DNA of 64,000 bases, taken from contig NC_088301.1 of NCBI RefSeq assembly GCF_032854445.1, forward strand, positions 8,058,281 to 8,122,280. The letters run 5' to 3'. Both the position numbers and the translations under genes were made by a program. The notes beneath the pieces are model-generated. The model did no database searches. It was not told where the DNA came from and worked only from the letters and a program-made list of their open reading frames with translations. This DNA is from Liolophura sinensis. Its lineage: Eukaryota > Mollusca > Polyplacophora > Chitonida > Chitonidae. Of this stretch, positions 15,778 through 64,000 are shown piece after piece (the stretch's first letter is position 1; each line of letters begins with the position of its first letter).

Positions 15778-15935
15778 TCAGTGTGACATGTTCAAGTAAT
15801 GCGAATTAGGTTTCTGGTTCATCTCCGACGCGTCAAACGCTGGGTTCTCAAATTCCGGCTCCCTCTGAGAAATGTTCTTTGTCAAATCCGCGAATTTGAT
15901 CCGGGTTCCGCTTCAGTGTCCTAGATTTTCGATTC
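15778..15935 (-). CDS. Gene B last exon: cytoplasmic tail, one base too long
   Basis: Acceptor tttttag. Reads NRKSRTLKRNPDQIRGFDKE then HFSE in phase 2, then after a shift in a GGG run reads EPEFENPAFDASEMNQ and ends NSHYLNMSH followed by TGA (15778-15780). The same words FDKEHFSE and NP-x-FD occur in the tail of gene A, so both halves are real. One surplus G explains the shift. Confidence 0.82.
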
Positions 15936-18900
15936 CTAAAAACAACAAAAAAGAATTAGGATTAACGTGTTCAGTATTCAACGAAAATTATATGTCAATT
16001 AAAGCAGTAACCTTTAATCAAGATTTCAGTGTTATCATTTTTAAACATATTTTGGATGTTATAATCAAAGTCAGTGTTATTTTTTTTATCTTCTTTCTAT
16101 GTTTTTGAATTTTGTACATTTTATTTTCTATACGTCTGTCGTTGTAATTACGCCACTTTTTGTCATTATGCACAGTTCGTGATTTTCGTATTAGCAAAAC
16201 GCTCCAAGTGTAGTTCATCGCCAGAGTTTTATGTTAACATTTTTAACAAGAACATACTGCTGTACCCTCGAAGTACTTTTTTAAGCAAATGTGTACGATT
16301 TTTGTCTTTGTGATTATGTCACTTTTTATTACGCTTACACTTTGTAATTTAGTTTTCACTTTGCTGCAAGAATAAAGCTTCAGGTACAGTGTCACCACCG
16401 GATTTTTTGTATTAACGCGGTTTAATTTTAGCAAAACTATATTTCTGTACTTGACAGNNNNNNNNNNNNNNNNNNNNNNNNNNNNNNNNNNNNNNNNNNN
16501 NNNNNNNNNNNNNNNNNNNNNNNNNNNNNNNNNNNNNNNNNNNNNNNNNNNNNNNNNNNNNNNNNNNNNNNNNNNNNNNNNNNNNNNNNNNNNNNNNNNN
16601 NNNNNNNNNNNNNNNNNNNNNNNNNNNNNNNNNNNNNNNNNNNNNNNNNNNNNNNNNTTACCTTATAAGTTACCTTTGTCAATTTTGTTCTGCAAAAAGA
16701 GAAAGAATAAAAAAAGGTTGACAATAATTGTTTATTCACCGGTACCGACATTTATATTGACCTGCTCGAATCAATATATGTCTTGAATCACCACATGGGG
16801 GTTGGTTTTGTTCATTTCATTCAAAATAATGCAGGTGACAGATTTTAGTATTTCGATAAAAGCTTCAACGGCAGACACCAAAGGTTGGTGTCAAGATGCG
16901 GCTTCACGCCAGGATGGTTTGTCAGAGTGACAACAGCAGACACAATACAATGTCTAGTTTTGGGTGGTTATGCTGCGGTTTGCGTCACAGAACAAGACGT
17001 CACTGTGGGTGTAGAAGGGAGTTGGGGGGGGGGGGGAGAAACTTACCCATTTTCATCCGAACTCTGGTAACCGTTTGTCTTTGAAATTATGGTGGTAGTT
17101 AGTGTTCCGTTGAAATCTTCAAACAAAAATAGAAAAGAATGTTTGTCCATTGAAACGTAATCAAATGCAGATTCAAAATGATGACAGAACTTGCTCTGTC
17201 GCCCTTATCTACTGCTACAGAGTTCAGTAACTCTATATGAAAGGTGTAATAATAGTAGTGCTGACAATCTCCACTTTATATATGGTAAGCCCATAATTTT
17301 GCAAAGTGTTCACATCGCAATTTGCCATGACTGCAGGATTACAAACTGTTGTAGACTTGAGTAAGTCTTAATCTTAACGTCTATACCGTTGAGTCTACTG
17401 AAATTGTGAGCTTTTTTGAGAAATTTGAATTTTATTGCTGAGTGTTCGTGACAAAATTACCGCTTAACTTAAAATTTAAATTCAGCCATAATACCAAACT
17501 ACAAAACTCTTCTCATTATGGTAATGAACCAAAATTTACATAAATTACATTTATAATTTTTGACTTAATTGAAAATTAAGTCAGGACTTCACACCTGAAC
17601 AAAAAGGTCCACTCACCGAATAATGCATTGAGGTACTGTAGAGCAAATGCAAGGTAACATTCACAATACTGTACACGGAATAGCAGTGGAACATGCGCTG
17701 TGCGTTACCCTACAGTTTTCATACTGTATACAGTGCAAATGCTGCGCTACCCTGCAAGGTTACTTGGGGCGTTAAGGTCACGATATTGTTGACATATCTA
17801 GCTTTGGACATAAAGGTTACATGGAAAACTTACCGATTTGACATAGAAGGGCTAGACATTAGCAAAAGGTAATGCTTAAGGCAGAAGTCTTACCTGGGTT
17901 TTCTTTCTTCCAGGCTTTAGCAATGGCGTCTTGTAAAGTCTCATCGTCAGTTCCATCGACTGGACCGGAAATGTAGAACTCGCGTATCTTGTCAGGGATA
18001 CATCCACAGACTGTAAAACCTGCCTTGGCTAACTCAGTGTCGTACACTTCCTGGGAAGGCTCATCAACGTTAGCTATGCTGGAGTCCGCGTCGAGAACGG
18101 AGGCCGTGTAGCGGATCTTTGTTACCGAGGCCCTACGGCATGAGACCAATAATAAACATGAAGATTAATTCGTTAACTTGTAGGATTTGTCACAAAAACA
18201 TATAGTGCGAGAAAATGCGGCAGTGCGAGAAAAACACCCTCATGTAACGATCGCATTTAATGTGGTCTGTCTAGTCGTGAAAATCTGAGGAGGGTACCTT
18301 TCCCGAAGGCAATGGTGACTTGAGTCCAACCCATATTAACTTTTGATCTCGAGTTACACACGTGTACTGTGTTACCATTTCGTCATCTAAAAGGCACCAT
18401 TGAACAGTGGATTGTACCACTTAAGCCGAATCGTTCTGGACGCGACAAGGTTTCCAAGATAGAACAGTATTACATACCCGTCATCACCGCTGGTGTAATC
18501 GCCTTCCTGGCCGAGGATAGTCACAGACATCGCGTCCAGAGCCACCACTGTTGAAACACAAATGCTACACACATTAAACTGGCAAGACGCTTGAAGAACG
18601 CACCATCTTTATATGAAGTAGGTATCACCTAAAATGTCATTTTGTGCCAATTCCAAATATGGTTCTCATGATTGTTTTTTCCACATTTTGCATATACAAA
18701 TAAAGATGGAGGGACTTTTGGGACTATAGAGGTACTATGGGGGACTTTTGGGACTATGGAGGTACTATGGGGACTTTGGGACTATGGAGGCACTATGGGG
18801 GACTTTTGGGACTATGGAGGCACTATGGGGACTTTTGGGACTATGGAGGCACTATGGGGGACTTTTGGGACTATGGAGGCACTATGGGGGACTTTTGGGA

Positions 18901-21900
18901 CTATGGAGGCACTATGGGGGACTTTTGGGACTATGGAGGTACTATGGGGGACTTTTGGGACTATACTGAATATGCTGAAGCCTCTTGATGTTACAGCATT
19001 TTAGCTGCTAAACGGTCTCTTTATTGTTGCTATCTTAATACGAATATACGAATATATATCGTGTCTTGTGTCTTCGACATGATAATTTAGTGAGACAGCA
19101 CTATATGAGCTAAATCTAAGTACTGACACTTGCTTTAAAAACTTAAAACTTAACATTAATGACTTAGTTTTGCTCAAACTCTTCAAGTTAACTTAAACAA
19201 AATTAATTGCTTTTGGGTTTTGCATTGGTGTAGACCTCTTATGGATGCAAACCTTTGTTCGTCGCCAGCCATGATTTCTTCAAGGCTTCTGCCAGATTTT
19301 CTGGTTTGTCGGTGGGCTTGTCCCAGACATAGAGCGAATACACACGGTGTGTGGGCAGTATTGATGGTGTCCATGGCGACAACTGTGACGTCACACTTTC
19401 TGAGGCCGGAAGTTGGGGCAGGAGCTGGATGTGTCACGCTGGGCCACAGATATTGTAAAATAAACTCTTGTGACACCTTGGCTGAAATAATAAAAGATAA
19501 AAAGTGGTATTATATAGATTTCGCTGAATCATTGTGTTATCCTTTTGGTATGTGAGTGTTTTAAGGTTTAAGTCAGTAACATGTTAATATCGTTTGTTTT
19601 TTAAACTTTGAATCTTTAACCTTTCGCTGTTCAATTAACTTCACGACTGAACAACAGACAACATATATGCTTTGATCCAAAGAATACATATATATTGTTT
19701 TTTGCAAGCATGTTGACATTTCATGATTTGATGTAAAACACCTCCTAATTGGTTCTCACCAAGGCGACCGTGTGTATCTTGACAAATGAGGTCGTCTGTT
19801 TCAAAGGTTTTGGGCGAGGGAATTTGACCCATATCTGAAGTAGGGCTGTTATTTTTTGAGGTCTCTCTATATCCCGATCCATAAAACAACCACCCCAATA
19901 AAGTAAAATGTTCTAAGAGAGAACGGCATAAAACAACAAACAAATAAATGTGTTAGATGGATACACTTTGCTCCTTCCTACGTTTCCAATAGATGATAAC
20001 CTGATGAAACTCACCCTTTAACATCTACGAACTCTTCAGTGCTCTTAAAATCTATCATTGCCCCTGTAAAGGAGAATAACATACATTAGAAAAAAAGAGT
20101 CCAGACAGGGGTTACTCATGTACACGCTATTGACGGCTGTACTTTTACACATGGTAAACACAAATGTCAGCAAATGGGCGCGTTTGACAAGATGTTTCTC
20201 TTTTCTATGTAAACGTGTTAGAGATGAAGACACAGTTGTACGACCTTGTACATGTTAGGCGTACACAACAAACTTTCACGATGTTTTTTTGTGTTTTGGG
20301 CAAATTTACATTCTAACAAATGAACATGCATGTACACCTGTTCAGACTTTAAACAATCTGCTGAGAGAACTCTCGTAACAGGATATAACACGAACCCTAC
20401 AGAGAATATGGGACACAACTCTTGATCATGAGGTAAGGTACACGCTCAATACTGGCCATGGACACATAGATCCTATGGCCATTCTCACTGTTTATCGGAG
20501 CGATCAACAACATCCCTGTGGCCATTTACGTATTTGTTTATTTATGTAATCATTGGTGTTTTACGCCATACACAAGAATACTTCAATTATAGGAAGGCAT
20601 TGTGGTAGGCGAAAACCGAGCACAGCTGACAGACCTTCCCATGCACGACTGGAAAGCAATTATATAGACAAATCGTACATAAGGGTGTGTACTTAACAGA
20701 GTTGCGCATTTAAATCTTTAAACATGTCTTAGATTCTTGAAAATCGACAATATATGTTACACAGAGATACGAAATTAACAACAATGTTTAAAGTTTCGAT
20801 AAATTTAGTCGATAAACCCTATGATTGGTAGAATATTACAAATACCTGGATATTTTGCTTTCCACATTTCCTCTATTTTCTTCTGAACTTCAATCGTCTC
20901 TGTATAAGACAAATTGCCTTCGATGTCTACGTGCTTTCGTCGTAAAGCTTGGCAAGCACAGACATCAATGGCATTGGATGCGAAAGACTGGGTAGTAGGT
21001 GGCGCTGTGTCCATGGGGCTTATCAAGTAATCTCCCCAGTTCACGAAGTACACCGCCTTCGACAGTTTTTCCCTGCATAGAGATAGCAAAGGACCTTTTC
21101 TCAATTCAGCTAATCTTTTGCAGTTTGAGGATTGCTCTAAAGTGAGGATAGTTGCACATTTGGTACAGATGTATAAAACTAATATCTAATCTTTATAAAA
21201 TTATACAATAAGAAGTTTATTTTGCAAATGTATTTAGCATGTTAAACTTTAACAGCGAATATCATTCTCGCCATTTTAAAATTAGCTGATTAAATATTGA
21301 AAGCTCCTCAACATACCCACTAGTTGAATAGTACACTTCCGGTTTGGTGATGGTGACCGAAAGAGAACAGCCAGTGCATCCTGGGAAATTCCGGCTGAAA
21401 CAGCATTTTATACACACTTAATTCCTGATGATTGTAAACTGATTTCAAAATTTTGAACATATGTGATTTTCTGGTGTTAATTAAAAATGCAAGACTGTAA
21501 GATCTCCAGCATCAACAGCAAACACGCACTTGTAAAATATTTATTTATTTGATTTGTGTTTAAAGTCGTCATGAAGAACCATTTACTTTTATGATGTGCA
21601 ATAATATAATGAAATATGTACAAATTTCGAGATTTGCCATGGCTTTGTCAGATGTAATTCTAAAATGGTGTTTTTATTTGCCGATTTTAAGAGTATACAA
21701 ACCTGGTATATTATTCTCCCATGTCGTGGTTATACCCCTAGCTAAGGGCATCTGGGCTTCTTTCATCAAAACGCTTTTGAGAATCACCGAATAGTGGAGA
21801 TCGTACGGTCGAGCCTCATTCCTTTTGTATACTGGGTTGAAAACATTCTTCTCCATCAGCTTCGTCTGGAAAACGTTTCCGGTTGGTGGGGCGGATATCT

Positions 21901-24900
21901 CTGGGTAAAGGAACTCACCCTCCTTGGCGATGAAGTATGTTACAGCTGTGAGCTGAATTCTGGAATCAAAATTCAAAATTCACAGGAAGAATATTCATGA
22001 TCTGTGAGAAAAATCAGTTTAATTTTACTAAAACAAGACATAATTCAGTTCAGTAGACAGCAAAAAGGTATTTTTCTGTCCTGTTAATTAAGCACAAAAT
22101 ATCTGTATTATTCTCCACAATGTGGTACCGAGAATCTACTACTATACTAGACAGAAAACAGAATTCGTCTATGCGACGTATATCTTCTTTCGCGGATTGC
22201 CTAACAGGCAATTTCAATAACAAACTATGGTATTAAGCGTACAAAGCATCAAATCATTGCACTTTCAGACTTGTTTCAGTTGCATCAAACGATCCTTAAA
22301 AGATAATCTTAACTGAATGATCAACTGTGACTATGTCCAGAAAGGGAGCGAGGAGGCGTTTTAACATCCCTGAGATTCAATCATATATACATAAATAAAA
22401 TTAAAACAAAATATTTACTTACCCGTAAATTCCAACATGTCTTTGTTTCCGAACAACGTATACCTTCACATAGCAGTTACAATCTTTGATATCTGTAAGG
22501 TAGAAAACAAAACATGTAAACCTAGTAGGTAAAGGTCGTTTGTTTCAAATAATGTATACTTGGGCACTTTTGGAGATCCTATATGGCTGCTGCGAAAGAA
22601 TGGACTGTTCAGAGTTGGGAGTTACCATGCCGCATTACGTTGGGGAGAGTGCTATTAAAGTGCCATAAAACATTGTATAAAAAAAAAGCGAAATGATCGA
22701 ATACAAGAAATGAAAAAAAAATATATACAAATAAATAAATTAAATAAAGAAGTCAAGAAATAAGGTTATTTAAATTATTTGATATATAAATAAATTAAGT
22801 AGGAATTTGAGAATTAACAATGCCGGACACTACCTTCGCTTCCCTCGGCCCAGGCGTTGTAGATGGCTTCTTCCACGTGATTACTAAGATCTCCAATGAG
22901 GTAGAGAGTATAAGAATTTTCTGTGTCAAACAACGTGCTGTTTTCCCTGTACACAGTCAGCTCACCATCACCGTTTTGAGTTAAGATATCGTTCAGGGTG
23001 TTCCACACCTCTGCTGTAGAATTCGTCATATTAAAGCTCATGGAGTCGCAGTTGACTGTGTACATAACCTTTATGACTTCCTTCCTGGAATTTACCAAAA
23101 CATTTAGAAAGTAAGCAAAATTAAATGGAAAACTTAAAAGCAGTGAAATTAAGAAAAAGAAAAAGATATAGACATGGAGATAAAAGATGAAAGATAAAGA
23201 ATACAAACTCACCCATTCTCATCAATCTGGGATTCCTTTCTCACTACATCTACCTCAAGCCTCGAACAGTTTTGTGCAGCTGTGGGTTAGAAAAGAGAAA
23301 AGCGTTCATTTAGTTTAGCTAATTAGGTGGTGCGTATTATATTCACACACCTCCTCTCTGAAACATCCTTTAGATTTGCCAGAAAATGATATATAGTTTG
23401 TCTGCCTCGTATACAACTGTTGCCTGTGCACCGTAAAGTTACAGCGTCGAATTCCTATAACTATCTATTTTTACATGATCATAGTATCTTCATTATAATA
23501 TTTATTGATTTATTTATTTATTTGATTGGTGTTTACGCCATACTCAAGGATATTTCACTTACGCGACGGTGGTCAGAATTATGGTGGCAGGAAACCAGGA
23601 AGAGCCCGTGCAAAACCCACGAACATCCGCAGGTTGTGGCCATTCATCATAATACTATTTGAATTTGTGAATATGCTACCCACTTTTTTGCGAATGGATT
23701 AACTTAACAGAAAATACTGGGACCCATCCACATGGGCCAAATTAATAAGTGGAAATGGTAATTAATAAGACTACATGGCTCACGCAATATATCCTATATT
23801 AAGTTAAAGACTCGAGAGAGAATTGTTTAATTTTTATTTGTGTTTACCCTCAGTACTGTTCCTTATCGCCTCCTCGAGAAATTCTTTAAGGACATCGTTA
23901 TCAATGTAACTATTGTTTCCGGTAAAATAGATCACGTGGTGGTTGTCGTATTCGGTAAGATTTCCGGGGTTGGCCACAGTCACTTCTCCGGAAACATCCG
24001 AGGTGAAGTATCGAGTAAGTTCCGGTAAGCCAGGTCCAGGCTGTACGAACGGGTTGTTCAGTTCGTCGTTCACCAGCACGAAGTAAATGTACCGTGTTAT
24101 TATCGACCTGAATGAAAACAGGAAACCAAAACAGTTAGAAGCGGAGAAATAATAAGTCTTAATCTCGAAAATTCCCGAGTTATCTCGCGCTAAATTAACG
24201 AAACCTTAGAAAAGTATTTTTCTTTTAAAATAAAACTTGAATTACAGCCGTGATAATGACGAATAGTCCAGAGAGGGAATTAGTATGTGTAGTTTTATAT
24301 ATTAACGACAAATTACAGACTGCACTGATTCACATATCTGAGATGAGGGTAAGCCAATGGAAAGACATGAAAGTTAAAAACACAGAATTCAGTGTAACGA
24401 TACAATATTTATTTAAAATATTTATTCACAGAATGAGAAACATATTCATTTTTGCAACATCTCTAACTCGAGCATTGTTTCAAGCCGAACGATTAGAAAA
24501 TGTACAAATAGAACGTCTGCATTGTTGTCGCATAGGCATAAATTGCCCTGTCCTTCTATCTGCTATGCGCTGTGCGCATGTCTGCTGATTATACCTCAAA
24601 ACTGCTATCTGACTTATTATTTCTGTATTTCTCTGGACTTACCCGTCTCTGTCCAAGTAGCGAACTCGTCGTGGAATATGAATAACGAACGTACACTCAC
24701 AGTTTTGGTATTCTGAAACACATCCAGGAATACATTTTCATTAGACAAAAGACAAACAATCACCTTCGGTCCGGACAGAACACAGATTAGAAAATGTAGT
24801 TAATGCACAGTTTGAAACGAATTGGTATTCGAACAAACGTAGGGGTACTGACACACGAAGGATATTCACACACGAAGTAACATTCACGAAGGAAGTAGTA

Positions 24901-37402: not shown

Positions 37403-37458
37403 CTTTCTCTCCGCCTCAAAATTAAAATATATCTGAGCACTTTTTTGTAATGCGATTG

Positions 37459-37466
37459 TATATATA
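37459..37466 (-). promoter_or_regulatory. TATA box of gene B
   Basis: TATATATA in a GC-flanked context (cctatatataca on the - strand), 57-64 bases upstream of the first ATG of gene B. A start near 37430 would give a short leader. The spacing fits a TATA promoter; no other core element is obvious. Confidence 0.5.
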
Positions 37467-38202: not shown

Positions 38203-38349
38203 TTTATTTATTTATTTATTTATTTGATTGGTGATTTACGCCATACTCAAGGCTATTTCACTTATACGACGGCGGCCAGCAATATGGTGGGAGGAAACCG
38301 GTTAGAGCCCGGAGAGCATCCACGACCATCCGCAGGTTGCTGGCTGGCC
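38203..38349 (-). mobile_element. 5'-truncated SINE with 12-bp target duplication
   Basis: Ends inside the body at gcaggttgctggctggcc. Flanked by tatgttatttta at 38191-38202 and 38350-38361. Confidence 0.92.
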
Positions 38350-38830: not shown

Positions 38831-38853
38831 CTGTATATATATGTGTATATATA

Positions 38854-38894: not shown

Positions 38895-38899
<5 letters not shown>

Positions 38900-41290: not shown

Positions 41291-41299
41291 AAACCCCAT

Positions 41300-42384: not shown

Positions 42385-42595
42385 TTTATTTACTTTTTAT
42401 TTATTTATTGATTTATTTATTTATGCGACCAGCAATATGGTGGGAAGCCCACGACCATCCGGAGGTTGCTCAACGACCTTTCCACGTAGGACCGGAGGAA
42501 GCAAGCACGAGCTGGACTCACAATGATCGCACTGTTGGGGGGCTCCATTGTACTACACTTCATGTAGTCTGCTAACAACTAAGCCTCCGTATTTT
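42385..42595 (-). mobile_element. SINE with internal deletions
   Basis: Tail, part of body (ccagcaatatggtgggaa) and tRNA-like end (aagcctccg) present, with the middle rearranged. Lies 3' of gene A on its strand. Confidence 0.82.
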
Positions 42596-43002
42596 AAACA
42601 ACAGTTGCAATCAATAAAGAGTTATCAGTTCTACAGCACCCGTGATGTACATTTATCAAAAGTTGTTACACAGTTAACTAACTGAAATTTGAAGCTTAAA
42701 TGCGACTTTCAAATAAATATACCCACATAACTTAAGGCTGACTTTACTGCTTTAAAACAAAAATGTAATGCCGGATAATTAACGCTCTGAATATATTTGT
42801 AATAAGAATAAATTTTGCAAATTTACCCGTAGAGGGCAGTAATTACTGCAGATCTATGACTTTCATGCGAACATCTCAAGCACTAAGTACAGATACAAAA
42901 AATTCACTTCCTAATGAGATTAATGCTGTATACTGGTCCAAATCCACTAATAATATTCCGCTAACAACCGAGTGGATATGAAGACAGCATCCCAAGGTTC
43001 TC

Positions 43003-43156
43003 TCAGACTGATCGTGTAGAAAACGGGTCCAGAGGATGCCTATTGTTGTCAAAACTTGGATTGTTGAAATTTACGGGCTCACTAAAATGCTCTTTGTCAA
43101 ACTCATTTTGTCTAATACCGTCCTCTCGTTTCTGCAAGCTTTCAGCTTTCCTTCGT
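43003..43156 (-). CDS. Gene A last exon: cytoplasmic tail
   Basis: 154 bp, acceptor gttgcag. Encodes RRKAESLQKREDGIRQ, FDKEHFSEPVNFNNPSFD and ends STRSV followed by TGA at 43003-43005. Shared with the gene B tail: basic start, FDKEHFSE and NP-x-FD. NPSF resembles NPxY/F sorting or PTB-binding motifs (inference). Confidence 0.9.
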
Positions 43157-52100: not shown

Positions 52101-55100
52101 AGATATTGTTTTTTTTCTATCAAATGTATAGGTAACGGTAATCATCAGCTGTAGTACTCAACAATATCAATGTTATATTGATTTAATGTAATGTTTAAAC
52201 TTTTATTTTACGTCTAGTTAAGGGATATACTTTCTTTTATCTGACAGAGTGACATTTTCCCTATACCAAAACTAGGTCGAGAAGGCATTTTTGACAACTC
52301 ATAGTTGTATAGCATGCTCCAGACCAACACTTTCACAAGGTTTCTGCATGTGATGTTTTATTCCGTAATAAATTATATTCCGTAATAATTATTTATGGTA
52401 ATATATTTTCGATCATCAAATTTTGTGTGATTAACAAGGACATCGCTTAAACGCTAACATGCACCATCTTATACATTCACAAAACACTTACCAAAATGTG
52501 CCATTGTGTAAATTTCGGAGAGACTTTTGCTGATTTCGATAGAGTCCAGGTAGATGGGAAGTCCTCTCAAATCCACCGAGAAGAGGAAACTATATTCATG
52601 TATGAGGGAAATGTCGCCAGTATAGGCCTGGGCACCGAGGGTAGAGTTTACATCACGGGCGATGTCCTGGGCCGAGGGAGCGGGGATCGTTAGCGGGTCT
52701 CTGGGTCTCTCCCCGAGGGTCATGAAGTAGGTCACCTGGGTCAAGGTCATCCTGAATCAGCAAATCAATGGGAGTTATTTACATCGTGGCACTGTAGCAG
52801 TCTATGTATGGTTATTGCTGACATGAATGACCAATAACAGGGTCTTGACGTGAAATTTTGTTCTTTTAAATTTGGACCTTCTCGGCTTTTTGCGCACACT
52901 GATGACATGGAAATAACGCTCAGAATTCCGTTTTTATAAATCTACGAAATTCGTTAAATGGTATAAAAAAATCTTCTGATGTTTCGCCAAAATCGTGTGG
53001 TATGCATCATTTAGACATTTGTTTCCGGGGTACCTGCTTAACTCAAAGCGCATTTAGGGCTGCATTAATCCAACCCTCGCAAGTTTGTCTTCAGTTTTCT
53101 CTTCAGTTTGGTCACGAGGTTTGTCAGATACATTGTACCTGGCTAAAGGCCTTCATTTACTTCGGCCACTCCAACTATCTTCACCCATAAACCTGACAGC
53201 CATTTGTAAAAGTTAAAAATCCTGGAGTGCTAATGAGTGCTAACCAATCAGATAAATGAATCAATATTTAAGACAAATCATGTCTTGGGTCCTCAGCCCA
53301 GGAAGTGTATTTTCTGCGACCCGTCCATTGTCTTATCACGGTAGCTTTGTCTCACCCATTCACAGCAACAGCTTCCTTTCGATCAGTCACCTCTGGCTTG
53401 AACAGTTCTTCCGGCCCTGTCAGCATACAAAGTCATCTTGTGTATCTCGTGTACGAGATATATCACCATGATTATAAAGAATACATCATTTCACCGAGAA
53501 ATACTATCTTTATATCTGCAATATATGCAGCTGACATCAACAATGTTCACGAGGCGTCAGCTGTCGTCTGCTCATTGGTGTGATTCCAAGCAAATAAATT
53601 TCAAATCGTGTGCAACGTTCAAACAATGTCCCAGGTTGCATGGACCTCCGATCGGCTCGTTTTGGAATTTTGTTTGTTTGTGAATATACAGTCTCATCAG
53701 GATATTTAACATCAAAACATCAGCCCGTAATTTTGTTCTGCCAAATATTACTCCCAAACCAACGTTAGAACAGGTTCCGTTTAGACATCTTATGCAGTTG
53801 CCGTAGCAGTGTGTCATGACATTCGAGTCACACCTGTTCCTTACCTTTTAATCTGACGATTTATCGTAAGCACAACGCCGGTCGGTTACTTCCAAGGCCA
53901 CGTGGCCCCGAATGCTTTGGTAATGCTCAAGGTGACTGGTTGTACAGCCAGCCTAGATATTTTTGACATCGGCAGGTAGCTGCATCAAGTTTTCCCATTG
54001 AGCGTGCTCTGACGTTGGTTTAGGGCCATTTCTGGTAAATGTTTTGCCAAGCCTAACGTTTAAGCAAGCTCAGGCTGGATAAACATCGGACCTTTACAGT
54101 GTAGTCAAAGATACCACTACAACAATATCGCAACATCGCGCCTTATGGCTGTGTCAAAACTCACAATAAAGACCTAATCAAGACAGCATCTGAAACACGG
54201 TTAAGCGATACATACTGCCTGTTCGCAAAATATGTGCCCAGTTAAATTAACCCATAAACCAGACTGCCATCGTATACGTGAAACATTCTCGAGTATCACG
54301 TCAAACATTGATAAAAAATATGCATAAATCAACCTCAAGGAGTTCAAACCCATTCCAAATTATCTCCATCTTTACAACCAAAGGCACAATCCTCTGCATT
54401 TCTGCAGAAATCTCTTAATAGGAAAGAATCGTTTAAGAAGATTTCCTGATCCGGATCACAGCCAAAATTTAAAGGAAAAGGATCATAAACCAAATATATG
54501 TATGCATCGGTGAAAGTATTCCATATGAAGTTTTAAAAAGCATGCCTCGTAAGCATTCTAGATTAAAAGTTGATTTATAGGGTTAGGAAAGTATGTTACA
54601 GCAAAATGGCTGATTAGCTTGTTTCCATATCTCTTCAGAAAAAAATCAGGTTAAATAATTTGTTGTATTTTCTTTTAATAGATTGCTCCGTAGCCCAGAG
54701 CCAATATGTGCACAATATTTTTCCCAAATCCATATCCCCCCAACAACTAACTGTTTCTGGAAATTTACCGACATACACACAAACAGACAAACTTACAGAC
54801 GAAAAAGCCCCCAACAATGACATAACCTCTTCCGGCGGAGGTACCATTTACCTGCTGTATGGCTGTACTTGCCGATCCATGCCACGAGAAGGGCAGTGGT
54901 TAGCTCACGCAACAGGAGCCGTCCAGGCCGTCCCCGGAAGTACACGCTATACTGTAAACTGTAATCCCTGTAAGAGGATTGGACGACTGTGTCCAGTACA
55001 CGGTACATCGATGTTGATTCGAATGTGGTGTCCAAAGCTTCTTGAACCTCCCTCATGTCCAGCTGTGTGAATTCCGCTGAGTTCACGACCTCTCCATTTA

Positions 55101-58100
55101 CCCGTACAAAGCATACGTGACGCCACACTGAGACTCTGGAAGCATACAGAGAAACATTCAAATTTAATGCGCAGATCTTGAGTCTCGGAGCGGATGACGC
55201 GTAATTTTCTTTTTTTTAGCCTCACATGTCTACAACATTGGTTTTCTGTTATCCTGATTCACATGCTGGCTTTAAAATTCTGTCTCTCTGTGACTCTCAG
55301 ACATTTAGGAAGAGGTAGCATGTTCGAATCCAGTTCTTAATTGCAGCCCTAGGTGCGGCTGGAAGTCGGTTTGTTGGTACTTAACGAAGGCCAGTGATTT
55401 ACTCCGGGCTTTTCGATATCCTCTCCCCATTTACCTTCCATTATATAAGTGGGAAATTTTAAAGTATTAATACATGGAGAATTTCCCGTACTGATCTATA
55501 TCTCAAGAGACATTCACTTATCTCACAGACAAAAATGGTGCACTGTCCTTATTATGTTACTTAATGCAATGCTTTATCGAGATGAAAAATTTGATTGAAG
55601 TAAACTGTCAAGAGGTTGAACAGCTGATGTGTGACTGGATGCCATTTGTCGCACCAGCTGTCGTCTCTAAGTGTCACGAACCCTGTCTTTAAACATCGTT
55701 TTATATTTTTTTTATTTGCCAGTGTCTGACCTACATTTTTCCCACTGTGTATGTTATAGCCTGCACTGTAATTCACTCGAGCGTTCTCGAGTCTTCGGTG
55801 TTTAGTGAGTTTAGTGTCATTGTACATAGGTTATACCTTCTGGAAATATGCATCCTTTTTGTAAACATGATTACCATCAAACCATCCAGAATTTTCTTTT
55901 ATGCTCATAAATATGAGCGACGGAGTTTACTCAAGTCCACTTGTGAGCAGCCATTTACTCATGTCCATTTGACGGCAGTCATATTTACTCTCACTCAATG
56001 TGAAAAATTTGGCTGAATTTGGAGATATCGGCTTTCACGCTATTTGACATTTGTACAACATTTTCTGTATAGAGCACTTTCTGAGCTTGTGTTTCGACAC
56101 TTGATATATTTTGGAGCCTGTATCGCTCATTGTCTCTTGTGCAACATCCCAGTTTATCCTGAAAATGACTTCGTGTATGTATTTCCGAGGAGTGAGATAT
56201 GCATCGACAGCTCGGCATCATGGACGCTACTGTCAACCCATCCACCCTGAAAAGTTACACCTTCTTAAGCGGTTGGGGAATAAACCATCGTCAGCCACTA
56301 CAGCTTGTCACTTGTTTGCCAGTTTTTTTTTCATCTTTACTCTCCGATAGTGGTAACCTTATGCTTTGATTTAGATGACCTCATGCCCCCTCCCCCTACT
56401 CCCACTCGTACTGAAGGCCAGTTGTCTCCCACCAATATTGTCTGCATATCTGTTCGTCACACGTTAGAATGTTCGTCAATAACTTGCCAAAGGTCAGGGG
56501 TTTACATCGGGCATTCCAGTTTCCTCCACCCATAATAATTACCACCACCATGTAAGTTGTTGATGTGAATGGTGTTGCAGAACATTAAGCTAAATAAATT
56601 CCAAATCAGAGATTGCTACTAAAAGTCCCACTGCACCTCGTAACCTGCCAAAAGTGTTGGCATTAACTTACTGTTAACATTAACTTACCGATCACCTGCC
56701 TTGCCATAATCCTGAGACACAAATGACATTCAGTTCCTTAACTTCCTTCATCGTTCGACTGCCTTAGCTAAACTTTTGTGAAACGATTTTCATACCGTCA
56801 TGTAAGAGTAACATGTCTGACACGTCATATGGTACAGTGAGACATTTTTACGTGTAGGAATCAAAGAGTTCACACTCGAAACTCCCCAGTTCATGTACGG
56901 CAAGTTTAGTCAAGATCAGACGTCACTATCATGAAATTATTCTCTTTGTAACAAAAATGAAGAGTGCAATGGTGTAAAATGCACCCCTTGAAGCTATCCA
57001 CATTTACATATATGTGTCATATGATAGAATAAAGACTTACTTGTGTTCATCTAGGAAACGCTCGTACCCTTGAAATTCTATGTCAGTATCTGTTGAAGCA
57101 ATGCCTGCAATGTGAAGTTATAGCCTATATACATACATTCGTTAACCAAAACTTAATGTAGGACATTCGTGTTGCAAATGTCGGTATTATCACTCTCTCA
57201 TCCCCATGATGTCAGAAATCCGGATGTCAGAAATACCATCCCCAACATTTTCCAAAAACAAAAGAAGGAAAACTTAAGAAAACTCTGAAAGAAATGACAG
57301 GATGTCAGGTTGCTTAGTTTGGCTTTGTATAGATTGATTTATGGACAATTAGTGGGCACTGTTAGTACTACTGGTACATCCGCGTGCCAACAGTCACCGC
57401 CCTCATCCACTCGCCTTGTGCCCTGCAGCACGGTGTTCAGACCCTGTAGCCAGGGGCGAATGGGCGAGGCCGGTCGCCGTTCGCGCGCGGATATACCAAT
57501 AGTGCAAGCAATGCCAATAAAAATAGTTAATTATTATTAAGAAAGTGAACATATAGTCAGTCACTTAAGCTGAATTAATTAATAAAGTAGTATTCGAGAA
57601 ATGTTTTAAAATATTAAAAAAATTCTACACCGCTTATCAACAAAATAAATAGCAAACAATCGTCACCTAGCTACTTTGATGATGCCATTTTACCATGTTA
57701 TAGCTATCTAGAGTGACATTACAAAACCTAGGAGCTCTTCTCTACCATCATTATTAAACAATGTGACAATCAAAAATTTCAAACAAAAACGCATGGTATC
57801 CAATCAAAGAGTATCAGTTCTGTTCCATATTCTCGCATTGTGGCGAGAAGGTCCTAATCGTCTAATTGAAGTAATGCACACTTCAGTGTTAGGCCTCTGT
57901 GCTGGTCTCCTCAAAGCCTACCACCAGTGTTACTTACCATGAGTCTTCGTCCAAACAGCCTTCAAAGTGCCGAGAAACATGTCTTGAAAGGTAAGCATGA
58001 TCCTTTTATCCAGGAAGATGCTCAAAGCATAGGACACTCGTCGTTCGTTCGTCACTTTCACCAGTTTATAAGACTGGCCGAATAGACTGGAGATTTTAAG

Positions 58101-61100
58101 GTGTTGTTGGAAGGTCTCGACATCTGGACCTCGAGTGGTATCACTTCGCACAATGTCAGATTCATACGTGACAGAGTAGGAGAGTTTCCACACATAGCGC
58201 CTAAGACACGAAAAGAGGATTTCATACTGTTAAGGAGTAATGTGTTATGACAAAAGAGACATATCTCTCTGGTATTAAGCTAGAACAATTGGAGCGAACA
58301 TATTAAGGAATCTACTTTCTTAAAGGCTTATAAAAACTCACACCAAAATCAGATTCTGCGAGATTCGTCGGCACTGGGAGCTTCCATAAAGGCACACTTA
58401 TTACTGGTAAATAATTATTGAATTTCATAAATTCGTAGGAAACTTTGACCCGGATAATCCGGAAAGGAACTCAAGCACCAGTAATCAGTAACTAAAATTA
58501 TGAAACCAAACGAACCATAAAACGTTTCAGAGTAACATGGATGGGGTCTTTAGGAGGAAGTTCATCCTATGTGTAGTGATGATGCCCCGGTAAAACATAG
58601 TCTTGCAGAAAGAACAGCCAGATATTGAAGTAGAAAATGTCTAGTAATGCCACGATTTTGTGCCAGATGAAATTATTTCACCAGGGCTTTCCGTCAGATT
58701 TCTGATAAATTAAAAACAGCAATTTCCTGGGAAATTTGAAATCCATAACATCTGAACGAAACAGACGTACCCCTGGACAAAAACCTCATGCAACAGTGAT
58801 TATATGATTATTGTAGTTTGGAGACAATAGTAATTACCTGGCTGAATAAATCTTCTCCTGTCCAATAATTTCAACTTCGACAGACTTATTTGTCACATCT
58901 GAAATGAAAAAAAAAAAAAGAAAAAAAAGCTGCAATTAATCAAGTTTCAAGATCAAGTTCGAAAGTGCTGGTATGCAAAAGCTTTTCAATGCTGAATTTG
59001 ATTGTTAGTTGCATAACAACATGATTTTAACCAAACCAATGACTTGGGTGATAGAATTACGGGGAGGTTGAGATCGTTTTTACACGTGTACACATCTTGT
59101 ACTGTTTGTACTTGTGACCTAATGACCCAATGATGGCTCTGTTTTCGCTTTTTGAGGCTTACTCTCCAGCCCGTTGTTCTGTCAAATGTCGACCATTCGT
59201 TTAAGAAACCATTGCTTTAAAGCCATATACGAAAAAAAAAGAAACAGCAGACAGCAGGCTACGCTATAATCACACAGTGTGCAAGAGAATCACATCATAA
59301 CGCATACAACACCGCTAATTTGCAATGGCAGCAAAATCCTGCGTAAGGTTTACGTTGCCTTTCACGCAGGACCCTCGTCAAGTCAACAGTGCCTGTCAAA
59401 AGATGAGATGTCAAACATTTCACCGACCAATCTACCAATGAAGAGACATACCAAGCAACTTTTCTGTTGCAACTAAATCACTTGATATCAAAGGATACTC
59501 TCAGAATTATTACCTTATGATTGTTTACCGCGATTTGTTTAACGAAATCAAAGACTTACTCTTCCAAGCCGACACAATCCCTGATGCAATGCTGTCGTAA
59601 GATTCCACGGCTATTTTCTGTTCACAGTGAACCGCAAACAGGTGTCTGTAGATTGTGTAGGACAAGGTGTCCCCTGTGTACAAGGAGTCCACATACTTCT
59701 CCCTGGTGTCGTTACGCGTGACATTCAAACTTTCGTATAGTGACGAGTTGGTGATGTCTGTCTCCACAACTGCACTGGTTACCTTCCCTTTGTACTTCAC
59801 CAAATACAGAACTCTCCACAAGGACAAGCTGTCCAAATGAAGTTAAGGGAATTTTAGATTACTGCAAGGTGTTCACAGTTACACAGCCAATATCCAGATG
59901 ACCATTACAGATGATTGAGTGTATAGATAATGTTGTTTGGATTCGTGATAAACTGCCAAAAGATGATATTAATATAAGATTAGAGAATATTAATCTTATA
60001 AGCATAGAGTGAAAGAAGTTTGACGTCTCTCATTCGTATGCCTATTTCTGTTTATGACATTTGTGACTTTAGCCATTAAATATTTTGTTTGCAACACCAA
60101 TATTATATTGGTATCTCCATCAAAATATACCTTTTATGATTTTCTACAGCTGTCAATTCCTCTTGGGAAGTTATGGTGACAGAGACGTCACTCCTTGACA
60201 CTGAAATAAAGAACATTGGAGCTTATTTTCTGTTTATTGTTAGACAGGACTATCAATCCTTGATCTTACTTAAAACAACTTTACTGACTCACAAAATACT
60301 ACCCGGATGTACGTTAGTTAACAGTTAAACGGAGGAAAGGCTTATTTAGTCATTTGACACTCGAAAACCACCATCAACTGAAGGCCATTGACGATGCTAA
60401 GTTTGGTTAAATAATTAATTCTGTACCGTTCTTCGACAACATCCATGCTTCTTCTAACTGTGACTGAATGATCATTCTGTCTGCCTGAAGCAAAGGTTGT
60501 GTCAGTGTTAGCTGGAAGTGCTGTTCATATGCTACAAGTGTAGTAACATCGGTCACTACGCTATAGCGGGCTGTTCTCAGGTCAGTCTGGAGTTTCGCCT
60601 GGATGTCAGTGGTGTTTAGCTGTGGAAGACGAGTCGATGACTGTATGGTTCCATTGCTTTTCAGTATGTACACCAACTTGGCCACATCACCACTGCAGGG
60701 GAGGAAAAGTTTTGAAGAAGAATTACAGCATGCAAAATTCGACATGTCTTTAAACTGAATTTACATGTATTACATCATCACCCGAAAAGCGTAACACAAA
60801 AAGAAAAAGGTTGGGGGATTGTATGGAATACAAAAACAAAACATTGTTTTACTTCTAGAATATATGCTCACAACAAATCGGGTCCAGAAAAGATTTGTAT
60901 CATTCTCCGTTTTTTTTAAGGCAAGATCGGTGTTAAGTTAGTTGAGCATTAATATGTCTGGTCGTTTCTCAGTTTACGTCTAGATCTCTTCACAGATCAT
61001 AGATTACTGTGATATTGTACCTTACGAACCCGTTTAATTCAATATTATTCTGAAATATCAGACTAGTTTAAAGATTTATATAAGGAAATTTATGAATGAA

Positions 61101-64000
61101 TAGTAAACATGTCTTTCATGTAAGTATGAGAAATGTGGGTTTATACAGATATGGAATATTTTAATGTGCTTTATCTGTTGGTATCCCCTAATGTGTACTG
61201 TGTATTGGTACACCTTGAAGAGTTTATATGATACAGCATATGACATTCCGATCAGCAAAAGCTCACCCTTTAACACTGATGAAATCCTCTTGGCGTATTA
61301 TCTCAACATCTAAGACAAAGTCTTTGTAAAATTCTGAAAAGTCAAAACATATGCTCATATACATGTCAAAACATATATCAGCTGTATTTTATAACTAACG
61401 AAAACGTTTTATTTTTAGTCTTACTAAACGCTATATTCAAGAGTTGTTCACCTATCACACGGCAGCCATAATATTACAGATGGCGGAAACCGGAGTGCAG
61501 AGATCACACGAACGACTTTTGGTAACAAACAGAAAGGGCTGTTTGCCCCTCGAGTTTTGATATACCAATATTATGGTCATGTACATGGCGAATACATTCA
61601 TTATATGTTGTGAATTTCGTCATTATCTTAATTTAGCAATTCATATCCTAGTTCCTCAAGGATATTCCACTATGTATTTGTATTTGAAACTGTTTTCAAA
61701 TAACGGAAACAGCATATCAATTTTATTCACACCTATGAATAGAACACTCCAAATTTCTGTTTTTCTGGTGCAAAGACAGAATGGCCTTTGTCGAACAACT
61801 ATCCAATTTGCACAGCTTAATAAAGTAGAAACTAAATTGGCACCCAAGTTTTTCTTTTATTTTTTATTAGTTGTAGACGAACTTTGCCTTGTATGAACAT
61901 TTTTGTCTGAACTTTTTTCTATTCAGATTTTAACAATTGCATTTTTCGGATATACTTCAAAATATTCTCACAGAGTAGTGCACCGTCGAAATTATTTAGG
62001 AAGTCACTTCTTAGTCAGGTTATTCTATGACAAAATCAGAACTATTCAGGAAGATCTTGATCCAACAACATATCGCTAAATGCAACAACATTGCAATGGA
62101 AGATCTTTACCTTGATATACTAATTCCCATGTAGCTACGAGAACACGGCGAATGCGTACAATGTCCTCGGTGTAAACATGTATATTCAGGAACACTGGAA
62201 TCATGACATCATAGCGATGGAGAACTACTGATCTGTCCACACTGATGACGTCATACGATCCCCTAGCTCCTGTGACATTCATCTCAGCTAGTTTCGCTAC
62301 AACTTTTGTGGCATTTATTGGGCTACAAACTGAGCTGTCCAAGTACGTAGTGTCGTTCCTTATGAACACTACCAACTTCCAGAGAGATTTCCTGAAAAAA
62401 AATGACAGCGCCATTTTGTAAAAAATTATCAGTTTTTGTGTATGGTTAGCACTTTCTTTATCAGCAACCGTGGACGAAGAAGGTAGAATGGTTTTGCAAA
62501 AATGAAACCAAGTTTCAAGAAACATCACACGGACATGCATGTACCCCTCATCCAATCACAACATTTGTGCAACGGCCACGTGGAACAAAGTTACACGAAA
62601 ATGACGTCCAACCCATAATGCACGTAGGCAAACCTGATGGGTAACTCGTGAAACTGCTTCCCGTCTGTATCAAAGCCGTGATTTCATTTGTTCTTTCCTT
62701 TATTACATCACAATTACCGGTGTATCTGTGCTCACAGAACATATATGAAGTACACACGCAATGCAAAGTCACAGAAGAAAACGATGCCTTCTACTCTCAT
62801 TTGGACCTTCTTTGTAGATCGTCCTCGAGTCTCCCCTTGGGGTAAATGACGTATACAACAAGAACATATATCACAGCACATCGTGTGTTGTTTTCGGTGA
62901 CATCACTCTGGTAATATGGAGAAATATATATACATACCCATGCTTGTCAACAAATTCCTCTTGATTTGTTATTGTCACACTGTGTTCCTCTGCAAATATA
63001 ATTGTTATCAATAATTTGCATTATACATTCAACTAAAGCAGCAGTGAGAGTGTCTCTTATCACATTTAAGTCATATCTAATGAGGCATTTTCAGGATACT
63101 TAGTTTTCACGAGATTATTTGTTAGATTGATAGTTCGTCAACGTAATACGGAGGAATTTTTCACTGAGGCCTGAAGATGTTATGTTGATTATGATTCCTG
63201 TTAAAAAGGCCATGAAAATAAAGGCATTTTTTTCTAAACACACACCTATATAAATAGACGATGACCATACGGCTTCGACTGCTTCCTCAAAGTGTATGAA
63301 ATCAGTGACTTTGACCTCTCGTGACACGTAAAGTGGAAAGTGCCACCTGTACTCCACCAGCACGTCTGACGTCACTTCCTCCGCTTGATAGACGTCACCA
63401 GAGATTGACGTCATAGCACTAAATATCTGTTGCAGCATAGTATCATTGATAACATGGATGGTCTCGCGGTCAACTAACGTCTGGTCAACCAAAATGACAT
63501 ATTCTAGGCGCCAAACTGTAATCCTGTTTAGTATAGAAAATATTTAGCAAATATACATCTTGGTAAAGTACACTTCTCACAATGTACCAAATAATGCACA
63601 GTATTAAGATCTATTCTTCAATATATCGGCTATCTGCGGAGTCGAAAATGGGAGACCTATTCAAGCGCAATGGCGACTCAAGTCCAAGCAGAAGTGACAG
63701 GTGTTCTCTTATAATCGGCTACGTAAGTACTATGCCACCAATTTGCTAACAAATCGTAGCTGGCTTCCTCTGGCTGAGAAAGTCTGCCAGCAACCTGATG
63801 ACGACAGCGTGATTCCCCCGAGCTCTAGCGGGTTTCTTTTCACCATAATATTCTTGAGCACAGCGTAAAACACCAGTCAAATAAATAACTAGGAAATAAT
63901 TGTAAACAAATATGTCAGTGAATACATACCATAGTTGCACATGTATTATGTGTTTACCTACATGTACGTTCCATTTATGCAGATGTGCTTACCATTTCTC
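43003..64000 (-). CDS. Gene A: paralogous transmembrane protein with twelve tandem modules (N-terminus outside window)
   Basis: Twenty-six exons, about 1,330 residues visible, every junction in phase and no frame break. From the N-terminal side: eleven complete two-exon modules, a truncated twelfth (linker 44829-44892, body 44513-44669), one membrane-helix exon (43759-43850) and a tail exon (43003-43156) ending TGA. Module order and tail match gene B, so it is a tandem paralogue in the same orientation. By analogy its missing N-terminus may carry DSL/EGF domains; that cannot be seen here. The extracellular part has many N-glycosylation sequons and few cysteines. No known family is recognised for the module. 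Confidence 0.88.
43759..43850 (-). CDS. Gene A membrane-helix exon
   Basis: 92 bp, phase 0 to phase 2. Encodes DNWKIIVGVVVGIAGFVVLC followed by SAVAHIYIKRR: a single hydrophobic helix with a G-x-x-x-G-like small-residue face and a basic stop-transfer. Gives a type I orientation with the modules outside. Confidence 0.92.
44513..44892 (-). CDS. Gene A module 12, truncated, leading to the membrane
   Basis: Linker 44829-44892 (64 bp; DDLDVQITNTKAKKDENG) and a shortened body 44513-44669 (157 bp; MVTDVEYTVSHNGGHPVEDL ... LKKHGLNVPDK ... TTGSN). The second strand-helix half is absent. Donor gtaagc, ending in phase 0 to meet the membrane exon; this boundary breaks the body rule as expected for a terminal unit. 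Confidence 0.85.
45090..45256 (+). mobile_element. 5'-truncated SINE
   Basis: Body from ttctccggacgtaggtcgc to aatcaaatagatatataaat. In a gene A intron, antisense to the gene. Confidence 0.85.
46019..47033 (-). CDS. Gene A module 11 (long linker with RQKR + body exon)
   Basis: Linker 46937-47033 (97 bp, the longest linker) contains KRQKRAATNSLKLVDKDG; R-Q-K-R fits the furin consensus R-x-K/R-R. Body 46019-46260 (242 bp; VTAVLYTVSVNGEE ... LCNCTPSLSHNLTVAGNLSD ... ALKDAFVAANPG). The C-x-C pair also occurs in gene B modules 5 and 7. Confidence 0.87.
47539..48294 (-). CDS. Gene A module 10 (linker exon + body exon)
   Basis: Linker 48243-48294 (52 bp; SVVINATEDRSYVDEDW) and body 47539-47777 (239 bp; LVRVDYTVSMDSAIAK ... 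HLRFLLQLKTL ... RRMYVKGKRSELTEDKLHQ ... SWLQHNPG). More basic in its middle than its neighbours. Confidence 0.86.
49142..50064 (-). CDS. Gene A module 9 (linker exon + body exon)
   Basis: Linker 49998-50064 (67 bp; SCSSCVTSVSIVHGQAYV ending TDNG) and body 49142-49383 (242 bp; LTRISYTVSMDNEELQ ... SQEVLQQYLTQSDRRFEMWT ... TLYIVSSANATLD ... ILSLAWMSVLNG). One of the clearest copies. Confidence 0.88.
49646..49759. repeat. Hairpin: 43-bp inverted repeat with 28-bp loop
   Basis: Arm 1 (49646-49688) starts aagtaactccgaatactgaa; arm 2 (49717-49759) ends ttcagtattcggggttactt and is its reverse complement with about 7 mismatches. In a gene A intron. Could be a small MITE-like element or a structured RNA. 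Confidence 0.85.
50729..51918 (-). CDS. Gene A module 8 (linker exon + body exon)
   Basis: Linker 51867-51918 (52 bp; VDVSVDILKMERYSGSFG) and body 50729-50976 (248 bp; VTKVLYTVRGNDTIL ... YLGDVYRLEVIYSLTVTMEL ... MIEAAIARAFVDNRT). The donor taken is a weak gtacga, the only nearby GT that keeps the 2 mod 3 length rule; reading on would reach a stop. Confidence 0.82.
51095..51535. repeat. ~34-bp minisatellite, ~12 copies
   Basis: Unit aatactgggatggttcatct followed by gtcattgttatag, with occasional longer units containing ggtacagttt. In the gene A intron between the module 8 linker and body. Confidence 0.93.
51966..52072 (-). mobile_element. Short SINE fragment
   Basis: Tail and first third of body (tttatttgattggtatttt to gggaggaaaccgg). 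In a gene A intron. Confidence 0.85.
52492..53416 (-). CDS. Gene A module 7 (linker exon + body exon)
   Basis: Linker 53356-53416 (61 bp; PEELFKPEVTDRKEAVAVNG) and body 52492-52751 (260 bp; LTQVTYFMTLGERP ... DIARDVNSTLGAQAYTGDIS ... YSFLFSVDLRG ... ISKSLSEIYTMAHFG). The linker was found by its length, splice sites and phase. Confidence 0.82.
54852..57104 (-). CDS. Gene A module 6 (linker exon + body exon)
   Basis: Linker 57041-57104 (64 bp; TDTDIEFQGYERFLDEH) and body 54852-55135 (284 bp, the longest; VWRHVCFVRVNGEVV ... VQEALDTTFESTSMYRVLDT ... YSLQYSVYFRGRPG ... TALLVAWIGKYSHTAG). Separated by an intron of about 1.9 kb. Confidence 0.84.
55325..55460 (+). mobile_element. Second SINE-like family, copy
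   Basis: Contains atgttcgaatccagtt, cggtttgttggtactta, gatttactccgggc and ends tatataagtggg. The last motif is shared with the first SINE family, suggesting a common 3' part. Confidence 0.55.
56435..56560 (+). mobile_element. Second SINE-like family, copy
   Basis: Contains ataacttgccaaaggtcag, tttacatcgggcattcca and cctccacccataataa. Closely parallels 6995-7100 in a NOX5 intron and 53095-53200. Confidence 0.6.
57938..58898 (-). CDS. Gene A module 5 (linker exon + body exon)
   Basis: Linker 58838-58898 (61 bp; KSVEVEIIGQEKIYSA) and body 57938-58200 (263 bp; VWKLSYSVTYESDIV ... TFQQHLKISSLFGQSYKL ... VSYALSIFLDKR ... TLKAVWTKTHG). Phase 1-2-1. Confidence 0.86.
59560..60200 (-). CDS. Gene A module 4 (linker exon + body exon)
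   Basis: Linker 60131-60200 (70 bp; SDVSVTITSQEELTAVE) and body 59560-59828 (269 bp; LWRVLYLVKYKGKVTS ... LSYTIYRHLFAVHCEQ ... ASGIVSAWKS). Body ends in phase 1 at donor gtaagt. Confidence 0.85.
60427..61333 (-). CDS. Gene A module 3 (linker exon + body exon)
   Basis: Linker 61267-61333 (67 bp; FVLDVEIIRQEDFISVKG) and body 60427-60692 (266 bp; VAKLVYILKSNGTIQS ... TDIQAKLQTDLRTARYSVVT ... LEEAWMLSKNG). Phase 1-2-1. Confidence 0.87.
61415..61530 (-). mobile_element. Very degenerate SINE fragment
   Basis: Recognised by ctatattcaagagttgttca and cacggcagccataat. Confidence 0.6.
62111..62989 (-). CDS. Gene A module 2 (linker exon + body exon)
   Basis: Linker 62938-62989 (52 bp; EEHSVTITNQEEFVDKHG) and body 62111-62391 (281 bp; LWKLVVFIRNDTTYLD ... 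KVVAKLAEMNVTGARGSYDV ... FLNIHVYTEDIVRI). N-glycosylation sequons NDT and NVT. Confidence 0.87.
63246..64000 (-). CDS. Gene A module 1 (partial linker + body)
   Basis: The last 8 bases of the window (63993-64000) are the end of a linker exon with donor gtaagc. The body exon 63246-63523 (278 bp) encodes ITVWRLEYVILVDQTLV, LQQIFSAMTSISGDVYQAEE, YRWHFPLYVSREV and FEEAVEAVWSSSIYIG. Confidence 0.82.
63755..63887 (+). mobile_element. SINE fragment with internal deletion
   Basis: Has tctgccagcaacctg, then the body, but lacks the segment between the cataat motif and attcttgagca. Ends caaataaataac. Confidence 0.82.

Follow-up and report, generated by a model that had tools for sequence, protein, structure and literature searches.

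Tandem Notch-ligand-like genes of the chiton Liolophura sinensis carry long arrays of a divergent two-exon module

We analysed a 64,000-nt stretch of the Liolophura sinensis genome (C7:8058281-8122280; hereafter the window), in which two genes on the minus strand, A and B, join a Notch-ligand-like front end to a long array of one divergent module, with a copy number of about 27 in A and about 8 in B. We lean towards reading A and B as tandem paralogous Notch-ligand-like surface glycoproteins, in which a ferredoxin-like array would serve as an extensible stalk and the head would probably not bind Notch.

Material and scope

The assembly was first published under the name Liolophura japonica, which has since been corrected (available text of PMC11068029; PMC12441733). 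The genome searches covered 609,464,459 bases in 632 contigs. The window was extended by 50 kb upstream, giving 114 kb in total, and the added part was numbered on from the window, so that positions above 64000 lie outside it. All exon joins in the models of A and B were predicted from genomic DNA.

Several other features were observed along the way. Two plus-strand frames have a NADPH-oxidase-type look: 3621-3881, with a Ferric_reduct match (E 7e-4) below its cut-off, and 10166-10378, by eye and with no Pfam match. Long repetitive frames (PLDNDLY..., GTFGTME...) arise from repetitive DNA at 11200-12250 and 18670-19000. Several places on both strands carry a dispersed element whose repeated reading resembles LFDWCFTPYSRIFHLYDGGQ, e.g., 145-375, 34248-34448, 45024-45263 and 51837-52022. 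Contig C99 contains seven cox1 matches about 15.5 kb apart and seems to be a mitochondrial concatemer left in the assembly; an eighth match is on C632.

Detection and copy number of the module

The earlier note, made from the sequence alone, had described long strings of one module in both genes. A profile of the 17 body exons in the window recovered 14 further, held-out frames at E ≤ 6e-5, which confirmed the claim and showed the array to be larger than noted. These frames are without exception on the minus strand, within 40 kb past the window end. A fifteenth body outside the window, at extended position 88091, had E = 0.07 with the same window-only profile. The best plus-strand frame of the extended region reached E 5.3, and the chance level for the body profile, taken from 20 dinucleotide shuffles of the 114 kb, was a best E of 0.13.

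The array of gene A consists of 26 full bodies (11 in the window and 15 in the next 24 kb) and a weak partial body at each end. The earlier count of eleven complete copies and one truncated copy thus holds inside the window but not for the gene, 15 more bodies lying past the window end. In gene B, six bodies are intact (starts 25452, 24107, 23084, 21959, 21072 and 18132), to which a frame-changed body at about 19.4 kb and an eighth body (start 16689) cut by an assembly gap are added. The seven complete copies counted before are therefore six; the half copy is the frame-changed body, and the orphan linker is probably linker 6 (20015..20063), which we assigned before that body. The frame 61076-61297 was rejected as a body copy: linker 61333-61267 lies there in another frame, and the frame never obtained a profile score.

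The mean pairwise identity of the bodies was 17.5% within A and 16.8% within B, and this low identity bears out the earlier view that the array is old.

The exon cassette and its splice phases

Splice sites were scored around both ends of the 32 intact bodies, and the best ones were taken without a frame filter. All 30 unique best acceptor sites were in phase 2, with one base before the first codon, as were the two ties. All 28 unique best donor sites were in phase 1, and in the four ties a phase-1 site was among the best; a count of 32/32 for both phases arises if ties are settled towards the assigned site. Such uniform phases support the two-exon module proposed in the earlier note.

In the search for linker exons, a phase-1 acceptor and a phase-2 donor were required and glycine was favoured at the junction. 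In this way, 34 of the 35 expected linkers were assigned (26/27 in A and 8/8 in B), several of them on weak evidence, e.g., 88500-88440 and 26429-26366 (profile E about 1). The linker between A bodies 55135 and 52751 was sought with the same phases and was not found. Glycine is encoded by the codon that spans the linker/body junction in 23/33 cases, a number that includes the preference of the linker search for this residue. Together, a linker and its body form a symmetrical 1-1 cassette, and copies can therefore be added without breaking the reading frame.

Many linkers have a C-x-C pair just before the strand, e.g., 24712-24643, 22492-22423 and, beyond the window, 65238-65172. In bodies 46260, 21072 and 18132, which have a short mid-segment, C-x-C is present within the body instead, a possible disulphide swap.

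Anatomy of gene B

The features assigned to gene B are as follows.

36807..37043, minus strand: frame with the MNNL (Notch-ligand N-terminal C2-like) domain; Pfam PF07657, 30.5 bits (cut-off 22.5), first third of the profile
33132..33314, minus strand: putative second half of the C2-like domain (VQVKIMIYDQDTG...), by eye; no Pfam match
32288..32533, minus strand: frame with DSL domain 1; Pfam PF01414, 52.3 bits (cut-off 24.2)
31443..31682, minus strand: EGF-like frame; PF00008, 29.9 bits (cut-off 21.5); JAG1-like EGF2 PF21795, 20.9 bits, below its cut-off of 27
28382..30902, minus strand: long open frame of 842 residues with DSL domains at 30495-30635 and 29940-30080, EGF repeats and two Ser/Thr-rich stretches; candidate donor 28382, phase 1
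26366..26429, minus strand: possible linker 1; acceptor in phase 1 (score 13), donor in phase 2 (score 6); profile E 1.3
25205..25452, minus strand: body 1
24643..24712, minus strand: linker 2
23848..24107, minus strand: body 2
23213..23279, minus strand: linker 3
22834..23084, minus strand: body 3
22423..22492, minus strand: linker 4
21703..21959, minus strand: body 4
21317..21380, minus strand: linker 5
20846..21072, minus strand: body 5
20015..20063, minus strand: linker 6
19253..19481, minus strand: body 6 with a mid-exon frame change; start QGVTRVYFTISV in one frame, VYSLYVWDKP...KKSWLATNKG in another
18478..18547, minus strand: linker 7
17894..18132, minus strand: body 7 (the sixth intact one)
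17047..17116, minus strand: linker 8
16658..16689, minus strand: start of body 8, TKLTKVTYKV (by eye), followed by the 200-N assembly gap 16458-16657
15778..15935, minus strand: cytoplasmic-tail exon, similar to the tail of A; the similarity continues in a second frame (by eye)

MNNL, DSL and EGF matches above the Pfam cut-offs support the Notch-ligand-like front end proposed for B, and an MNNL and DSL front is present in A too. In the genome search for MNNL, the sole match other than that of B lies about 60 kb from it, upstream of the array of A. The second and third DSL domains of B, in the long frame, scored 38.4 and 36.8 bits. By Pfam, seven EGF stretches are found in this frame and two more upstream of it. 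Its Ser/Thr-rich stretches contain 53% and 47% Ser+Thr, and one of them is built of a 33-base tandem repeat. In 28382-32533, an EGF that contains a Cys-Cys-Cys run comes after each of the three DSL domains, as read by eye. The DSL-EGF cassette of B itself seems duplicated, which is unusual in a Notch ligand.

A transmembrane exon was sought in B and was not found; it is presumed to lie inside the 200-N gap at 16458-16657. Since two frame changes (body 19253-19481 and tail 15778-15935) come together with this gap, B may be damaged or misassembled, the frame changes being either damage in this individual or an assembly error. These same defects would also fit a decaying locus or exons that are not joined at all. 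Against this, no stop interrupts the 55 exons joined for A, in which one linker is missing, and the splice phases are uniform throughout; we therefore regard decay or unjoined exons as very improbable.

Anatomy of gene A

The front of gene A lies outside the window. Its MNNL open frame (96521-96697) scored 37.1 bits in Pfam against a cut-off of 22.5, over the first third of the profile only, and its DSL open frame (92551-92907) scored 54.3 bits against 24.2. One EGF, split across two exons, was recognized by eye, with no Pfam match. A Ser/Thr-rich stretch of 257 residues (45% Ser+Thr) precedes the array, after which the order is half body, 26 full bodies and half body, with linkers, then the transmembrane exon and the tail exon. 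The features of A within the window are as follows.

63246..63523, minus strand: body; 15 more follow past the window end
62938..62989, minus strand: linker
62111..62391, minus strand: body
61267..61333, minus strand: linker
60427..60692, minus strand: body, used for structure model 1
60131..60200, minus strand: linker
59560..59828, minus strand: body
58838..58898, minus strand: linker
57938..58200, minus strand: body
57041..57104, minus strand: linker
54852..55135, minus strand: body; following linker not found
52492..52751, minus strand: body
51867..51918, minus strand: linker
50729..50976, minus strand: body
49998..50064, minus strand: linker
49142..49383, minus strand: body
48243..48294, minus strand: linker
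47539..47777, minus strand: body
46937..47033, minus strand: linker
46019..46260, minus strand: last full body
44829..44892, minus strand: last linker
44513..44669, minus strand: terminal half body (NMVTDVEYTVSHNGG...); phase-0 donor; profile E 3.4 and 7.1; tblastn to body 46260, E 0.01 within the region
43759..43850, minus strand: transmembrane exon DNWKIIVGVVVGIAGFVVLCSAVAHIYIKR; acceptor in phase 0, donor in phase 2; hydropathy 2.8 (19 residues)
43003..43156, minus strand: cytoplasmic-tail exon, FNNPSFD then stop; phase-2 acceptor; similarity to the B tail, tblastn E 1.8e-4 within the region

Splicing the predicted exons of A together, with the Ser/Thr exon first and the transmembrane exon last, gives 55 exons that encode 3,057 residues without a stop, the one missing linker being padded; no frame change was met in these exons. 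The phases were required by construction here, and the evidence consists of the absence of stops and of the separate frame-free phase count. The array apparently opens with a second-half body, encoded in the last part of the Ser/Thr exon ahead of its phase-1 donor, and closes with a first-half body. These two half bodies had profile E values of 6.5 and 7.1, which are not significant; their assignment rests on place and splice phases and, for the terminal one, on the weak similarity to body 46260. The Ser/Thr frame of B also has a phase-1 donor and could join directly to the weak linker, without the half body of A.

Paralogy and history of the arrays

The MNNL/DSL front, the array and the similar tail (tblastn E 1.8e-4 within the region) are present in both genes, which supports the earlier description of A and B as tandem paralogues. 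A tree of the 32 intact bodies (6 from B and 26 from A) was split in two (support 86/95), the six B bodies being placed with A bodies 88091, 84197, 82752, 52751, 49383, 47777 and 46260, opposite the remaining 19 A bodies. The seven A bodies that group with B come mostly from the two ends of the array, and A bodies 86150 and 50976, which are also near the array ends, are on the other side with the 19-body group. Support in the tree is weak, with 1/29 inner branches starred, and two A/B pairings were flagged as long branches meeting. The B bodies do not form a clade (4 changes, with 367/500 shuffles as low). With caution, the tree may point to a shorter ancestral array whose middle was expanded in A.

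The low identity of the copies, the unequal copy numbers of the two genes and the cassette structure would also suit immune-type or gamete-type recognition proteins, with head and array diversifying by cassette gain under selection. However, the divergence appears old and not recent, and we see only a small chance that the genes are of this type.

Search for a known family

The earlier note could not assign the module to a known family, and no strong Pfam match was found for any copy tested. Neither the 17 bodies nor the joined units searched (22/30) gave a significant match (best E 0.012), and the weak candidates, CIA30, DUF2341, YqbF, FDX-ACB and others, were rejected, as each was hit by a single member. 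Four long joined pieces, which cover most copies but not all, gave nothing better than E 0.07 against Pfam. Profile matches to PDB sequences were rejected as well (E 0.89 or worse). Searched against the genome, a consensus sequence yielded 21 matches at E ≤ 1 and another query two, every one of them at the A/B locus. Since the consensus found 21 places against 32 known intact bodies, rare relatives may exist elsewhere in the genome.

Predicted fold and the question of SEA domains

Single modules were modelled as the earlier note had proposed, which gave one moderate and one poor model. For body 60427..60692 with 17 aligned sequences, AlphaFold predicted the order strand-helix-strand-strand-helix (pLDDT 75, pTM 0.66); for another body with 10 sequences, the order was similar with extra strands (pLDDT 58, pTM 0.41). 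Foldseek found no match at E ≤ 0.001 in the PDB and viral libraries. The PDB matches of ferredoxin-like, ribosomal S6, MscS and subtilisin-prodomain type (E 0.16 and above) and the best viral one, a parvovirus nonstructural protein (E 0.018, probability 0.96), were rejected. A ferredoxin-like fold, one of the two suggested before, is thus reasonable with respect to the strand/helix order in the better model, but no significant fold match backs it. The linker strand would complete the ferredoxin-like order in either of two registers.

The other suggestion, a SEA fold, was not supported by the sequence comparisons. Some SEA domains have a Gly-Ser autoproteolysis site between strands 2 and 3, and divergent SEA domains were reportedly the subject of work by Pei and Grishin in 2017. 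The SEA model PF01390 matched 0/17 bodies, 0/22 joined units (of 30 made) and 0/4 long joined pieces. A genome-wide search with PF01390 found nothing either and is uninformative, since no control was matched. In comparison with the MUC1 SEA domain, whose letters were checked against the PDB, the units scored 9.7 (27/60 shuffles as high) and the bodies 11.7 (11/60). Gly-Ser was present at 2/33 linker/body junctions.

Nevertheless, the array could be a true, very divergent SEA array like that of MUC16, in which the unit would be a second half-body, the linker and the next first half, and some units would autoproteolyse or be shed. With the apparent half bodies at both ends of A, whole units fit only in this half-body register, and the register implied by the earlier note may accordingly be off. 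The sole strongly length-variable stretch of the body (12 to 32 residues) falls between its halves, which fits a domain border there, and a mucin-like neighbour and a membrane-proximal place are, in general, what would suit SEA domains. The array ends of A thus favour the SEA-like register, but the start of the B array does not, as the Ser/Thr exon of B ends without a half body. The end halves of A are not significant alone, and neither a SEA match nor a MUC1 SEA signal was obtained in the comparisons described above, with Gly-Ser as rare as stated. We consider a true SEA array possible, though rather unlikely.

The Notch-ligand head and its Notch contact

The features of Notch ligands that were found are MNNL and DSL in A and B, an EGF after the DSL (in B by Pfam and in A by eye) and, in A, a single transmembrane segment. 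When compared with the solved Serrate, Jagged and Delta-like chains, the DSL domains of A and B had best E values of 4.3e-13 and 2e-9. We take the DSL phenylalanine that precedes Gly-His-Tyr to be F207 of Jagged-1. In the printed alignments, A has Arg where Serrate and Jagged-2 have this phenylalanine, and DSL 1 of B has Leu where Serrate and a Delta-like chain have it; the other two DSL domains of B have no phenylalanine there (by eye). In addition, the Arg directly before Asp-Asp is Glu in both A and B. According to the available part of PMC3888931, the F207A exchange in Jagged-1 reduces Notch-1 binding to background.

Eight other chiton DSL domains were fetched, of which seven were readable; phenylalanine is kept in two of these and missing in five, one of which, the third-best DSL domain in the genome, has Ile at this place. 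A and B thus share the loss of the phenylalanine with other chiton DSL domains. Activation of Notch by either protein is therefore doubtful, though conceivable.

These data bear on whether A and B could be ordinary Notch ligands with an unusual stalk, whose head activates chiton Notch. The MNNL, DSL and EGF front would agree with it, as would the single-pass anchor of A and its tail with a possible internalisation motif; the tail F-x-N-P-x-F motif of A and B resembles such motifs. Since other chiton DSL genes also lack the phenylalanine, its loss may be compatible with Notch binding. On the other hand, the residue required for the Jagged-1/Notch-1 interaction is replaced in A and in DSL 1 of B and absent from the other two B domains, Glu replaces the Arg in both proteins, and A has a single EGF (by eye). 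We give the ordinary-ligand explanation little weight; A and B are probably not canonical Notch ligands.

Proposed architecture and its meaning

If expressed as modelled, the surface glycoproteins that we favour would carry a Notch-ligand head (MNNL/C2-like, DSL, EGF) on a Ser/Thr-rich, presumably O-glycosylated stretch, which would lead into the long array of about 27 divergent domains in A and about 8 in B. In A, one transmembrane segment would anchor the protein, followed by a short tail that bears the F-x-N-P-x-F motif, and the middle block of its array appears to have been expanded by the addition of linker-body cassettes. The folded unit would most likely be a ferredoxin-like beta-alpha-beta-beta-alpha-beta domain, with the linker strand as its sixth element and a topology comparable to that of membrane-proximal SEA-type domains. 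By analogy, the array could act as an extensible stalk that holds the head away from the membrane. Since the DSL face is without a known Notch contact, the head would probably bind a partner other than Notch, in adhesion, recognition or as a decoy. What the data show is the anatomy, the phases of the exons, the front-end homology and the paralogy; the full fold, the glycosylation, the expression and the function are inferences.

More tentatively, A and B might represent a new type of cell-surface tether, with a head that derives from a Notch ligand but is uncoupled from Notch and a stalk lengthened by a phase-symmetrical exon pair that is out of register with the ferredoxin-like unit; we hold this to be possible, short of probable. 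A domain that no 2025 Pfam model matched in the copies tested has here been added to a well-studied ligand type, and duplication of an exon pair would be a route to very long surface proteins. The paralogues differ mainly in how they use their length, B having invested in DSL/EGF units and A in stalk units. Whether the expansion of DSL proteins in molluscs left Notch signalling behind becomes a directly testable question.

Comparison with known systems

MUC1 and MUC16 are SEA-domain membrane mucins, and the alpha/beta domain is repeated in MUC16. A and B share with them a mucin-like stretch, a predicted alpha/beta domain and its membrane-proximal place, but differ in having no SEA sequence match, in not keeping the Gly-Ser junction and in bearing a Notch-ligand head. 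A literature search for joint mention of a DSL and a SEA domain returned a single paper, on the cubilin receptor, in the text available; the search was limited and leaves absence unproven.

Common to A, B and the Delta/Serrate/Jagged ligands is the order MNNL-DSL-EGF, together with the single transmembrane segment in the case of A. In contrast to these ligands, A and B add a Ser/Thr stretch and a long array of an unclassified domain, the phenylalanine of the Notch contact is absent, B has three DSL domains, and A has one EGF (by eye). Among the expanded DSL genes of lophotrochozoans, the available part of PMC8166818 likewise reports expansion and reshuffling of DSL genes in molluscs. There, mollusc Delta2 is described as being without a transmembrane segment and absent in the chiton Acanthopleura granulata, tandem-DSL genes are reported in bivalves only and without EGF, and that part of the paper describes no comparable array in mollusc DSL genes. 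In JAG1, exons are out of register with the EGF repeats (available part of PMC2725086); this mismatch between exon and domain concerns the EGF repeats in JAG1, whereas in A and B it possibly concerns the domain of the array.
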